Shown: positions 18,159 to 21,825 of the stretch, in pieces | How the letters are laid out: every line of letters starts with the position of its first letter | Position numbering within the stretch: position 1 is the stretch's first letter | Origin: a virus | Strand: one strand, 5' to 3' | DNA: 21,825 bases | IMG/VR virus record: IMGVR_UViG_3300026488_000054 | Location: 1 to 21,825 of that record | Position numbers and translations under genes: made by a program | The notes under the pieces: model-generated | The model's input: the letters and a program-made list of their open reading frames with translations, nothing else | The model's database searches: none | Told to the model about the DNA's origin: nothing

Positions 18159-18437
18159 TCACTTTTTTTCTGCTCGTTGTAGGCTTTGTGAAGGTTCGTA
18201 AACGTACGAGTGGCGTTCCTTGATAAACTCAATCAAATCTTTCTGGTGGACCCGATAATAAGGGGAGCTTCCATCTGCAATAACTATTGCTTTGAGCTTA
18301 CCGTATCTAATCCAGCTTAGAACAGTGTTATAATGCACGCCAAAAAGGCGCGCTATTTCTGATGGCTTCCAAACCCTTTTCCTCCGTGCCTCTTTTATCC
18401 AAGCCTCAGCCCAAATTTCACGAGCATCTTCAACCAA
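18159..18437 (-). CDS. Small HTH protein, excisionase/MerR-like
   Basis: In this 92-residue protein, residues about 21-70 form a typical helix-turn-helix of the excisionase/MerR type: WKPSEIARLFGVHYNTVLSWIRYGKLKAI followed by the wing YYRVHQKDLIEFIKE. It would bind DNA as a recombination directionality factor, a transcription regulator of the late genes, or an accessory packaging protein. Its position between RusA and small terminase favours a regulator of the late operon. The start is TTG 18437 with GGAGGTG seven bases upstream, and it overlaps RusA by eight bases. The last residues (YEPSQSLQRAEKK) are encoded by copy B of the 31-bp element, which suggests that this segment was acquired with the element. 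Confidence 0.78.
   Translation of the reverse strand: MVEDAREIWAEAWIKEARRKRVWKPSEIARLFGVHYNTVLSWIRYGKLKAIVIADGSSPYYRVHQKDLIEFIKERHSYVYEPSQSLQRAEKK
18178..18208 (+). repeat. Dispersed 31-bp element, copy B (3' end of the HTH gene)
   Basis: TGTA, then GGCTTTGTGA (18182-18191) and AGGTTCGTAA (18192-18201), then ACGTACG. It is the most diverged copy and lies at the junction between the replication and packaging modules, before the small terminase gene. Confidence 0.72.
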
Positions 18438-18813
18438 GTTCCCACACCTCCACTATCACCCTCTCTGAGGCCTCTAATCGCCTCTCTATTGAAAGAAAAT
18501 CCACTTGCCTATCATCTACCCATACAAGACCGTTAAAAGCGTCTAAAATCGCCTTCAATCGATTGTCTACGTCCCCGCGTCGGTACTTGACGCAGAGTAG
18601 AACTCTTACCCTAAGTCTGCCCTTAAGGGGTTTATGTTTGGGGAGCTGGCGCCTTACCTCGTTTGCTACCAACCTTTTCCACTCCCGGGCCCTTTTGGTT
18701 AGAAATCTTCTTTTCCCCCGTGAAGCCCAGTAGTGGTTTACAGAGGGCGGTATGGCCGGGATTTCTATTTTCAGCTTAGAACTCAAGGAAGTTGTAGTCG
18801 TAGTCCTCTTCAA
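18430..18813 (-). CDS. rusA: RusA-type Holliday junction resolvase
   Basis: The 127-residue protein has the RusA core: KIEIPAIPPSVNHYW at the start, and YRRGDVDNRLKAILDAFNG...VDDRQVDF. The acids D81, D83 and D100 (or D101) and the lysine K87 match the catalytic Asp, Asp, Asp and Lys of E. coli RusA. It should resolve Holliday junctions or branched DNA before packaging. The start is unsure: TTG 18813 gives a Thr-rich leader and a 38-base overlap with the helicase gene, while TTG 18789 gives a shorter protein closer to the family start; neither has a well-spaced ribosome site. Confidence 0.88.
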   Translation of the reverse strand: MKRTTTTTSLSSKLKIEIPAIPPSVNHYWASRGKRRFLTKRAREWKRLVANEVRRQLPKHKPLKGRLRVRVLLCVKYRRGDVDNRLKAILDAFNGLVWVDDRQVDFLSIERRLEASERVIVEVWELG

Positions 18814-20035
18814 CCTCCACCTCTATCTGGTCTGGTCTCTTAAACTGTGGAATACCGTTCTCAAACGGCACTGTAATTTCTCTGTTGGCCGTGTCTACCC
18901 GGCACTTGGCCACCTTGACCTGAAGAATGTCCGGAGTTTCTTTCAGGTTTCTGTGAAGGAGCAGGATGTTGGAAGCGTCCTGTTCAAAGTTCCCGGTTTC
19001 CTTGATGTGTTCTATCAGAGGCTCGTCTCTTCCCACCCGGGCGCCTCTGTTGAGCTGGGCAAGGGCGACGATAGGACAGGTCCTTTTAGCTATCTCTAAG
19101 AGTTCTGCCGAAACGTAGTCAAGAAACTCTTTACGGTTCTTGTTTGAGGAGTGCTGAGTAACTTTTTGAATATAGTCAATGTAAACTACGTCCGGCTTCA
19201 CCTCAAAGATTTTGGCCTTTATCTCCGGGAGAGTTAAGGGCCCCGGCTCAATGTATATGGGAAGGTTGCTGACGGCATCGGTCGCCTTAACAACGGTACT
19301 AAAGTCAAGCCAGCCATAGACTATTTTTTTCAGCGGCTCTCCGGTATGGATTGAGATAAGGCGGGCCATAACTTCATCTTCGGTTAACTCCAGAGAGAAA
19401 AACTGCACCTTGATGCCCATCTGGGCCTGGTTATAGAGGAGGGAAAGGGCCGTCATGGTTTTTCCAATTGAGGGGCGGGCGCATATCAGGGTTAGCTCTT
19501 TCCTATAGGTGAAGATAGCGTCAAGTTCCTGAGAGCCGGTTGAGATGCCTTGAATTTCGTCGCTCTGACGCTGCTCCTCCTGCTTCTTTAGCCATCTAAC
19601 AGCTATATCGCTTACCTTTCCTCCTCTTAACTCCCTATCCCTTTCAAGGTCTGAGAGATGGGCAAGGGCCTCTTCCCGGGTGATTTCACCGCTTGCAAGG
19701 GCTCTTGCGATGTCAAGCTCTTTGTGCTTCTTTGAATACTCAATGAGCTGTTTTATAAGGGTTTCAACGAGCTTCGTGTTATCTACGGCATACTCAACGG
19801 CCAGGCCGGCCGACTGCTCAAGCCGCTGGTCTGAGGCGGCGAGGGTAATAACCTCCTCAAAGTTCATTCCCTCCTCAAAGCGCTTCTTTAGTAGAGCGAA
19901 GAGCTCCCTGTTATCGCTGTTTATGAAGTCTTCGGGCTTCAGGATTGAAACGCACTTGTAGAAGGCCTCTTCCGACATAAGCATAGAGCCCAGAAGAGTT
20001 AGCTCCACTTCGGCCCTTTTCATTAAGACGTTCAC
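18776..20035 (-). CDS. dnaB: DnaB-family replicative helicase
   Basis: The 419-residue protein has a DnaB N-terminal helical domain (about 1-105), a linker (about 106-160) and a RecA-like motor. Walker A is ARPSIGKT (186-193), a likely catalytic Glu lies in SLELTEDE, Walker B is VYIDYIQ (284-290), and ALAQLNRG (325-331) and HIKETGNFEQDASNILLL (343-360) follow, all typical of DnaB. It is somewhat shorter than the usual 440-470. It would unwind the phage origin. Start GTG 20035 overlaps the loader stop as GTGA; ATG 20023, with AAGGTGA upstream, is an alternative that drops four residues. Confidence 0.94.
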   Translation of the reverse strand: MNVLMKRAEVELTLLGSMLMSEEAFYKCVSILKPEDFINSDNRELFALLKKRFEEGMNFEEVITLAASDQRLEQSAGLAVEYAVDNTKLVETLIKQLIEYSKKHKELDIARALASGEITREEALAHLSDLERDRELRGGKVSDIAVRWLKKQEEQRQSDEIQGISTGSQELDAIFTYRKELTLICARPSIGKTMTALSLLYNQAQMGIKVQFFSLELTEDEVMARLISIHTGEPLKKIVYGWLDFSTVVKATDAVSNLPIYIEPGPLTLPEIKAKIFEVKPDVVYIDYIQKVTQHSSNKNRKEFLDYVSAELLEIAKRTCPIVALAQLNRGARVGRDEPLIEHIKETGNFEQDASNILLLHRNLKETPDILQVKVAKCRVDTANREITVPFENGIPQFKRPDQIEVEVEEDYDYNFLEF

Positions 20036-20742
20036 CTTGCACCCCCTCTCTTGTCGGTTCCCTGGACGTAGATGGGAATGCCCCTTTCTGCGAGCCTTGA
20101 ACGACTCTTTTGGCTCACCAATTCAAGGAGCCTCTTTGGGGGTGCAATGTTGGTGGTGACTATCAGGAGGGTTTCGGTGTTATAGGCCTGGTTTACGAGC
20201 TTCTCAAAGGCCTCTACTGCTTCCTCCTCAAGGTCGTCAATGAGTATCAGGTCGTACTGCTTGGTTATCTCGGTAAAGGGAACTCTCTCCTGGGCGTTGT
20301 CGTAGGAAGGGGGACGGAGCTCCGTCTCAACGCTGAAAGTAACGTCGTCAACGAACATGCACAGGTGGAGCTCCCCACGATAGAGGGCCAGAAGCTCGTC
20401 GCTCGTGAGGAAAAGCGGCGTGAGGCGCTCTGTAACGGTCTTGATTGCAAGAAGCCTGACAGCCATGAGGGTCTTGTAGTTACCGACGTCGCCTGAGAAG
20501 ATGATATAGAGGGGAGGAAAGCCGCTGGCGAGGAGCTTTTCTTCCTCGCGCTTTATCTCTGCAAAGTAGCCCTTTGCGAACTCTTGGGGTATAATATCTG
20601 TGGCCAGTGCCCTTTCAAGTAAGGGCACCATTCCCCTTCTTTTAGGCAGGTTGCACCCGAGCAGGTTTCTCCACGTTCTGCTGTCGCAACCTGCCGCTTT
20701 CTCAAGGTACTTCCTGAGCTGCTCAAGGGTTCCGGTTCCCAT
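20032..20742 (-). CDS. DnaC/IstB-like helicase loader with unusual P-loop
   Basis: From ATG 20742 (236 residues; GGGAGG six bases upstream) this AAA+ protein has a small N-terminal domain with cysteines C19 and C30. Then come a P-loop FSGDVGNYKT (82-91), Walker B LILIDDLEEE (165-174), sensor-1 TTN (196-198) and candidate arginine fingers in KSRSRLAER (212-220). The glycine just before the P-loop lysine, nearly always present in GxGKT, is replaced by tyrosine (Y89). It likely loads the adjacent DnaB-like helicase onto the origin, like DnaC or lambda P. Start and upstream stop share the TAATG junction. Whether it still hydrolyses ATP is open. Confidence 0.82.
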   Translation of the reverse strand: MGTGTLEQLRKYLEKAAGCDSRTWRNLLGCNLPKRRGMVPLLERALATDIIPQEFAKGYFAEIKREEEKLLASGFPPLYIIFSGDVGNYKTLMAVRLLAIKTVTERLTPLFLTSDELLALYRGELHLCMFVDDVTFSVETELRPPSYDNAQERVPFTEITKQYDLILIDDLEEEAVEAFEKLVNQAYNTETLLIVTTNIAPPKRLLELVSQKSRSRLAERGIPIYVQGTDKRGGAR

Positions 20743-21692
20743 TACCAACCTCCCTTCACAGAGAAGTAGACGCCTTCTGTGTTAGTGGCCTGAAGCGACA
20801 CGGGCTTGTTTAAGAGGTCTGGAGCTCTAAAGCTAAAGGCAAAGAAGGAGTAGCCTTTATCCATTACCCACTTATCCCGCAAGCTAAAGAACTCAGGAAT
20901 TCGCTCCAGCAGACGCTTAACAATGTCTTGGAGCTCCTCTTTTGTTGACGCTGAAGTTTTTAGATGCTCGGTAAGCCTTTTTACCGACCTGGTGTCTATA
21001 AGCGGGTAGCGACCGAATTTGCGCTTGTAGTTGAGCTTGAACTCGTTAACGATGATGTTTTGAACCAGGTTCTCTGCTAAAGTAGCTATTTCCCTATTAA
21101 TTTCTTTTTTAGAATTATCTAAAACATTATTGCCTTCTTCAGGCGGCTTATCATCTCCCTCTAAAACTTTTATCTGGGAATTTTTATCTAAAACTCTTTC
21201 TCTAATAATATTATTTACGGGTGGCTCTGGGCTTTGTGGCTCTTGGGCTACAGAAGATTTTTTAGACCCATTTTGGGTCTTAGTTAGACCTATATTAGGT
21301 CTTTCTAAAACCTGTTTTGGGTCTTTTTTAGACCCATTTTGGGTCTCATTAAGACCTATTTCAGGTCTATTTGAAGAACCTAATTTAGATGTTATAAATT
21401 CTCTTAATCTCTCAATATCTAATGAGATTTTCTTACCTTCTCGTTTAATGATAGAAAATTCTTTTGTTACTCCATCTACCTTTTTGGTATAGGTCAGTCG
21501 CTTTAATTCAGTATAAATGTGGTCTTTTCTTATTCCGGTTTTCTCCGCCAAAATATCAATTGTGAATGCACCACCGCCCCTGAGGTTAAGGAAGGAAAAC
21601 AGACAAAGAACGATACATCTCTGCCTATTTGTAAGAATTTTTGAGTTGTATAAAAGTTCTGGAAAGTCATAGATAGAATATTTCTGCTCCAT
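20742..21692 (-). CDS. O-like replication initiator containing the phage origin
   Basis: The 316-residue protein has an N-terminal winged helix (about 15-100: SKILTNRQRCIVLCLFSFLNLRG, FTIDILAEKTGIRKDHIYTELKRL, then a wing with EFSIIKREGKKISLDI). A low-complexity linker follows (about 105-205), with TQNGSKK twice. The C-terminal helical domain (about 210-316) has QNIIVNEFKLNYKRKFGRYPLIDTRSVKRL, similar to C-terminal parts of phage replication proteins that contact the helicase or its loader. The linker is encoded by five iterons. The order initiator-loader-helicase supports the role. ATG 21692 has GGGAGGTG upstream. By analogy with lambda O, the winged helix would bind the iterons. Confidence 0.85.
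   Translation of the reverse strand: MEQKYSIYDFPELLYNSKILTNRQRCIVLCLFSFLNLRGGGAFTIDILAEKTGIRKDHIYTELKRLTYTKKVDGVTKEFSIIKREGKKISLDIERLREFITSKLGSSNRPEIGLNETQNGSKKDPKQVLERPNIGLTKTQNGSKKSSVAQEPQSPEPPVNNIIRERVLDKNSQIKVLEGDDKPPEEGNNVLDNSKKEINREIATLAENLVQNIIVNEFKLNYKRKFGRYPLIDTRSVKRLTEHLKTSASTKEELQDIVKRLLERIPEFFSLRDKWVMDKGYSFFAFSFRAPDLLNKPVSLQATNTEGVYFSVKGGW
21096..21217. other. AT-rich flank of the iterons, probable DNA unwinding region
   Basis: Two very AT-rich blocks (21096-21130 and 21178-21217) lie on the helicase-gene side of the iterons, as the AT-rich strip does in lambda. The octamer GTTTTAGA (minus strand) occurs at 21118-21125, 21160-21167 and 21187-21194, with a fourth copy within the iteron array at 21304-21311. 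Confidence 0.6.
21264..21368. repeat. Five 17-bp palindromic iterons, 22-bp period: predicted origin of replication
   Basis: Units start at 21264, 21286, 21308, 21330 and 21352, each exactly 22 bp from the next. Units 1 and 4 are AGACCCATTTTGGGTCT, unit 2 is AGACCTATATTAGGTCT, unit 3 is AAACCTGTTTTGGGTCT and unit 5 is AGACCTATTTCAGGTCT. Each is an inverted repeat of 7-base arms around three AT bases (units 3 and 5 are imperfect), with 5-bp spacers that differ. A degenerate sixth unit may sit at about 21376-21392. All lie within codons of the initiator gene, as in lambda. Confidence 0.9.
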
Positions 21693-21703
21693 TATTCACC
21701 TCC

Positions 21704-21825
21704 CTAAACTCTTTCAATTGCTTTAAGCATTCTCAAAACGGCTCTGACGGCCTCCCACCCTTCCTTACTAAGTCTTTCTTTCTCTCTTGGGCTTATCTCG
21801 TCGTCGTCAATCGCTTCAGCGTGGG
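21704..21825 (-). CDS. C-terminal end of an unrecognised gene (partial)
   Basis: An open frame enters from the right edge and ends with TAG at 21704-21706. The visible 39 residues are helical and charged: HAEAIDDDEISPREKERLSK, then EGWEAVRAVLRML and KAIERV. It ends eleven bases before the initiator's ATG, close to that gene's ribosome site, so it belongs to the same transcript. The rest lies outside the window, and no family can be named. Confidence 0.65.
   Translation of the reverse strand, partial: HAEAIDDDEISPREKERLSKEGWEAVRAVLRMLKAIERV

Follow-up and report, generated by a model that had tools for sequence, protein, structure and literature searches.

A predicted iteron replication origin inside the initiator gene of a phage related to prophages of heat-loving Aquificota

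We analyzed a stretch of viral DNA of 21,825 bp, an IMG/VR virus record that may be a fragment (here called the window), and found an array of five repeated sites at positions 21264-21368. By far the best reading of this array is an in-gene iteron replication origin. As with lambda ori and SPP1 oriL, the initiator gene would itself contain the origin, of which the array would be the initiator-binding part; for this reading, taken as a whole mechanism, we estimate a probability of roughly 0.88. Four features of such an origin were present: a series of repeated sites within the gene for the initiator itself, DNA conservation of these repeats that exceeds what coding requires, an initiator with a predicted DNA-binding domain beside loader and helicase genes, and AT-rich, unstable DNA beside the repeats, which in the window lies 47 bp away. 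In-gene initiator origins are already known from lambdoid phages and SPP1, and the literature that we searched contained no paper describing one from Aquificota phages.

The initiator gene (20742..21692, minus strand) encodes 316 amino acids and matched phrog_678, "replication initiation O-like." This match was weak (E of 8e-4 for the full protein and 1.2e-4 for the N-terminal part), and part of it covers the iteron-coded linker. AlphaFold2 modeled the N-terminal domain (codons 1 to 108; 21369..21692, minus strand) as a winged helix with moderate confidence (mean pLDDT, 71.5). The best chain found by VIA-align was 2d1h (Z, 8.4; rmsd, 3.9; 94 aligned). Proteins of the MarR and DnaD types ranked below it, and the fold searches pointed to a generic winged helix. 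Model and fold comparison agree with the winged-helix domain that had been predicted by the sequence-only reading. The predicted recognition helix, KDHIYTELK (model residues 56 to 64; 21501..21527, minus strand), differs in sequence in relatives with other iterons. Alignment and model delimited an all-helical C-terminal domain (20745..21107, minus strand; pLDDT, 81), which presumably contacts the loader or helicase and is common to the relatives regardless of their type of DNA-binding domain. A fold search with the C-terminal model gave no clear match, and sequence searches of solved structures returned no credible relative for either initiator domain and none for lambda O.

The genes next to the initiator are, as had been claimed, a DnaC-like helicase loader (20032..20748, minus strand; phrog_3277, E of 2e-6) followed by a DnaB-type replicative helicase (18776..20035, minus strand; PF03796, E of 1.3e-37). 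On the other side, the 3' end of a putative CII-like (Phage_CP76) gene (21704..21825, minus strand) was assigned by position and by eye from its translation. In the relatives, a Phage_CP76 (CII) gene matching PF06892 lies directly upstream, and a CI-like repressor with an S24 peptidase domain is present. The helicase gene is followed by a RusA resolvase in the window (18430-18813) and in the relative L005; at this place L082 (8360-8851), L085 (3389-3862), and L002 (6548-7030) carry another protein with a GID(P/N)G start, RuvC-like by eye, possibly a resolvase swap at one position.

Relatives were not found by protein searches of IMG/VR with the initiator, the loader, and DnaB, nor by an initiator search of INPHARED; the loader gave only a weak DnaC match, in Iodobacter phage PhiPLPE. 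A terminase search led to L002 and L005, both with the order initiator, loader, helicase, terminase. L082 was found with a profile of the shared C-terminal domain, L085 (a contig of a Thermovibrio genome) with a helicase profile, and L173, at the far end of L005's contig, with a profile of the N-terminal domain. Searching the phylum added L169 (which matches L082; genome G121), L170 (G130), and the remote L171 (G122). These three genomes fall within the family of the Thermovibrio genome; Thermovibrio is assigned by NCBI to the Aquificota, Desulfurobacteriaceae. An L082-type prophage sits in G121. From the relatives, among them prophages of heat-loving Aquificota, we infer the host of the window's virus. 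The literature on phages of this host family yielded no relevant work. Scanning viral contigs for AGACCY-type arrays returned L082's contig as the only initiator array; the other seven matches were isolated or short, without a homologue of the window's initiator.

Some of these loci showed peculiarities of their own. The first ~119 bases of contig IMGVR_UViG_3300028030_000027 (L005:1-119) recur near its far end (L173:3801-3919), and beyond that repeat lies a different replication module with a type-1 initiator; apparently the assembly went round a circular or permuted genome and continued into a sibling phage whose module had been exchanged. In L170, the G130 prophage, the DNA-binding and C-terminal domains are in different frames (912-1358 and 1282-1848), with the shift immediately past the iterons; this could reflect a split initiator, a frameshift, or an error in the sequence. 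The two domains of L171 are likewise in separate frames (794-1297 and 1369-1818), and toward the end of the first there are two near-palindromic copies of CTACARAAATTTGTARGA at a distance of 45 bp.

The array is composed of 17-bp sites with 7-bp arms around a 3-bp centre (7-3-7). The sites start at 21264, 21286, 21308, 21330, and 21352, which bears out a spacing of exactly 22 bp, and 7, 7, 4, 7, and 6 of the 7 arm pairs, respectively, are complementary. Numbered in gene order, iterons 5 (AGACCCATTTTGGGTCT, 21264..21280), 4 (AGACCTATATTAGGTCT, 21286..21302), and 2 (AGACCCATTTTGGGTCT, 21330..21346) are the three perfect palindromes, iteron 3 (AAACCTGTTTTGGGTCT, 21308..21324) is degenerate, and iteron 1 (AGACCTATTTCAGGTCT, 21352..21368) falls one pair short. 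The earlier description as five inverted repeats is therefore slightly generous for the third copy, although the 17-bp sites are present. The sites had also been placed on the same side of the helix; this is only approximate, since at 10.5 bp per turn the phase drifts by 0.38 turn in total over the five. With a matrix built from the five sites, the array sites scored 18 to 23 bits, and the next best in the 21.8-kb window scored 7.8, with no comparable site elsewhere. A possible vestigial sixth iteron (weak; GAACCTAATTTAGATGT, 21376..21392), 24 bp further on, scored 6.3 bits, within the window background. At the matching place L173 has a clear sixth iteron (L173:5298-5314, 24 bp upstream of the five), of which the window and L082 keep only a decayed trace. 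An exact-pattern search found no second array in the window, L082's record, or genome G121.

We then considered whether the repeats could come from a repetitive, disordered protein linker, their DNA similarity being a by-product of coding. The linker peptide does contain TQNGSKK twice, confirming the sequence-only reading on this point, and model confidence beyond residue 105 was very low. However, because 22 cannot be divided by 3, each copy is read in another frame than the one before it and encodes a different peptide. Moreover, the best five-site score at 22-bp steps among 2,000 synonymous-codon shuffles of the gene was 26, compared with 31 observed; none of the 2,000 equaled it, and the encoded protein therefore cannot explain the array.

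The sequence-only reading had proposed a check in relatives, in which the repeats should be kept while synonymous sites elsewhere change, and the outcome was as predicted. The initiators of the window and L082 are 64% identical. Among codons for the same amino acid, 1 of 28 differed between the two in the array, compared with 34/79 in the N-terminal part (Fisher p, 5e-5) and 35/59 in the C-terminal part (p, 3e-7); the corresponding figures were 72% for the loader and 61% for the helicase. Four of the five sites were base-for-base the same, including the degenerate third site, and iteron 1 kept 13 of its 17 bases. This comparison indicates that the array is under selection as DNA. A short recombination tract could contribute in part to the low synonymous change between the window and L082, but not to the concerted change in L173 described below.

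The DNA-binding domain of L173 is 82% identical to that of the window (89/108), yet its array reads AGTGCYA where the window has AGACCYA. ACC is replaced by TGC in 9 of 10 half-sites and by TAC in the tenth. At arm positions 3, 4, 14, and 15 the two arrays differ in 20 of 20 cases, covering all five sites, compared with 9/65 at the other positions (p, 7e-13). Nine arm pairs were altered on both sides with complementarity kept, and L173 retains the spacing, the order, the AAA core, and the degenerate middle copy. Amino-acid-changing codons amounted to 20/35 in the array and 21/108 in the DNA-binding domain; the switch of sites thus rewrites the linker peptide, yet the palindromes are retained. 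That all sites are altered alike in so close a relative suggests that site and protein change together. In L170, whose domain is 36% identical, we found four AGTCCCA-AAA-TGGGACT-type sites at 23-bp spacing. The predicted recognition helix varied with the half-site: KDHIYT or KDHIYC with AGACC, KEHIYR with AGTGC, and RNKIYQ with AGTCC. Residues of this helix may thus set the specificity for the site. A coding by-product is already contradicted by the different frames, the frozen synonymous sites of the array, and the palindromes that stay in L173 while the peptide changes, and we regard it as hardly tenable.

The sites come in AGACCCA and AGACCTA types, which had been taken to hint at two binding strengths. 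Reading frame explains this alternation better. A T-type palindrome would introduce a stop codon in two of the frames (TAA in frame 1, TAG in frame 2), and a C-type palindrome in frame 2 reads DPKWV. The window, L082, and L173 all have T types in frame 0 alone and C types in frame 1; their copy in frame 2 is the degenerate site. Because stop codons account for the alternation, two binding strengths are not needed, and the coding conflict is the simpler reason; a difference in affinity may follow from it.

L005, L002, and L085 share the C-terminal domain of the window but have another winged-helix domain. Their iterons lie at the same position in the gene and are non-palindromic: CGTGGACACC at 23-bp steps, CCGATAACAA, and AAGGTGAACA, respectively. 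The DNA-binding domains of L002 and L085 are 63% identical, and their iteron spacings nearly coincide (23, 22, 12, 12, 45, 12, 12, 22 versus 23, 22, 12, 45, 12, 22, 23), although the motif differs. These arrays have 5, 6, and 7 copies, compared with maxima of 4, 6, and 5 in synonymous shuffles; as the excess is modest, the case for them rests on position and spacing. Direct repeats of this kind at the same place also bear on a role of the palindromes at the RNA level, as hairpins in the transcript of the initiator that serve attenuation or translational control. Each 7-3-7 repeat could indeed fold in the mRNA, but hairpins would require neither a constant 22-bp spacing nor a conserved AAA core, and the cousins' repeats are not palindromic. 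We consider hairpins very unlikely.

The least stable 50 bp of the gene (21168..21217), a candidate unwinding element, lie on the gene's 3' side of the iterons, with the instability minimum 47 bp from the last site. AT-rich DNA had been noted on one side of the array; the minimum is indeed on the 3' side, but the 5' flank is AT-rich too and almost as unstable. Of the seven genes compared, six, among them that of lambda, had their least stable 50 bp where the iterons end on the 3' side or a little further 3'; L170 departed from this pattern by a small margin. The same arrangement argues against the palindromes being an operator, used by the initiator or a different phage regulator to control its own operon, with the origin elsewhere. 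Palindromic sites of a winged-helix protein are typically operators, and binding within the gene could block transcription. Nevertheless, the sites are ~325 to 430 bp inside the gene, rather than at a promoter, and do not recur elsewhere in the window. The cousins' non-palindromic arrays agree with them in place and in the side on which unstable DNA lies, which is the layout of lambda ori. An operator in place of an origin is accordingly improbable in our judgment; autoregulation could accompany origin function.

For the in-gene origin, the sequences show an array that is selected as DNA, keeps its place from relative to relative, changes in concert with the DNA-binding domain, and lies beside an instability minimum; binding, dimer stoichiometry, melting, loader recruitment, and origin activity are what we infer. 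Dimers of the N-terminal winged-helix domain would bind the 17-bp palindromes and stack roughly two helical turns apart. The initiator-iteron complex would then melt the AT-rich stretch that lies toward the 3' end of the gene. The DnaC-like loader and the phage's own DnaB helicase, whose genes follow, would be recruited by the C-terminal domain.

Lambda O carries its iterons likewise, as the sequence-only reading had stated. Gene O has four iterons at 0.43 of the gene, with unstable DNA just 3' of them, and these are imperfect 7-3-7 repeats around an AAA-type centre; the first has CAA AAC GAG, and its window counterpart reads CAA AAT GGG. Lambda ori and the window share in-gene iterons at about 0.4 of the initiator's length, inverted repeats of 17 to 18 bp whose centre is A-rich, DNA instability on the gene's 3' side, a CII-like gene upstream, and a loader gene downstream. 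The window differs in its iteron sequence, its regular 22-bp spacing, and its five sites instead of four, and it encodes a DnaC-type loader and its own DnaB, whereas lambda uses P and the host DnaB. The window protein did not match PF04492 (Phage_rep_O) at an E of ≤1, compared with 5.7e-36 for lambda O. The term lambda-like consequently holds for the way of working, without detectable membership in lambda's Pfam family. A comparison by hhalign with the N termini of lambda, P22, and HK446 gave an indecisive probability of 12%. In HK446, another coliphage, lambda's 20/24/23 spacing is kept with a different iteron sequence, so that the separation of spacing from sequence is already present among lambdoid phages. 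Lambdoid origins such as that in P22 gene 18 also have in-gene repeats that differ between phages with related initiators. P22 differs from the window in repeat sequence and hosts, and no homology of the C-terminal domains was established.

For SPP1, a Bacillus phage, our comparison drew on the published description. Its oriL lies in gene 38, the loader is gp39, and the helicase is gp40; the origin contains repeats and an AT-rich unwinding element (PMC6316719). SPP1 therefore resembles the window in having an origin inside the initiator gene, with the genes for the loader and a DnaB-type helicase numbered directly after it (PMC6316719). Unlike the window, where, in what may be a fragment, there is no second array, SPP1 also has oriR ~13 kb away.

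A matched series of initiators and iterons lifts this case above an ordinary new example. With one type of DNA-binding domain the series comprises AGACCYA (window and L082), AGTGCYA (L173), and AGTCCCA (L170), and with the other type, the three non-palindromic motifs of L005, L002, and L085. We think it fairly likely that these phages form a natural series: with spacing fixed, the specificities of the DNA-binding domain and of the whole array would change jointly, accompanied by changes in the recognition helix, and the resulting origins would be mutually incompatible. Within a gene, the reading frame limits which iterons can be held. Since close relatives in the series differ in the protein and likewise in every one of its sites, the rules by which an origin-binding winged helix recognizes DNA would become readable and testable, and this group of phages supplies candidate heat-stable initiators and origins.
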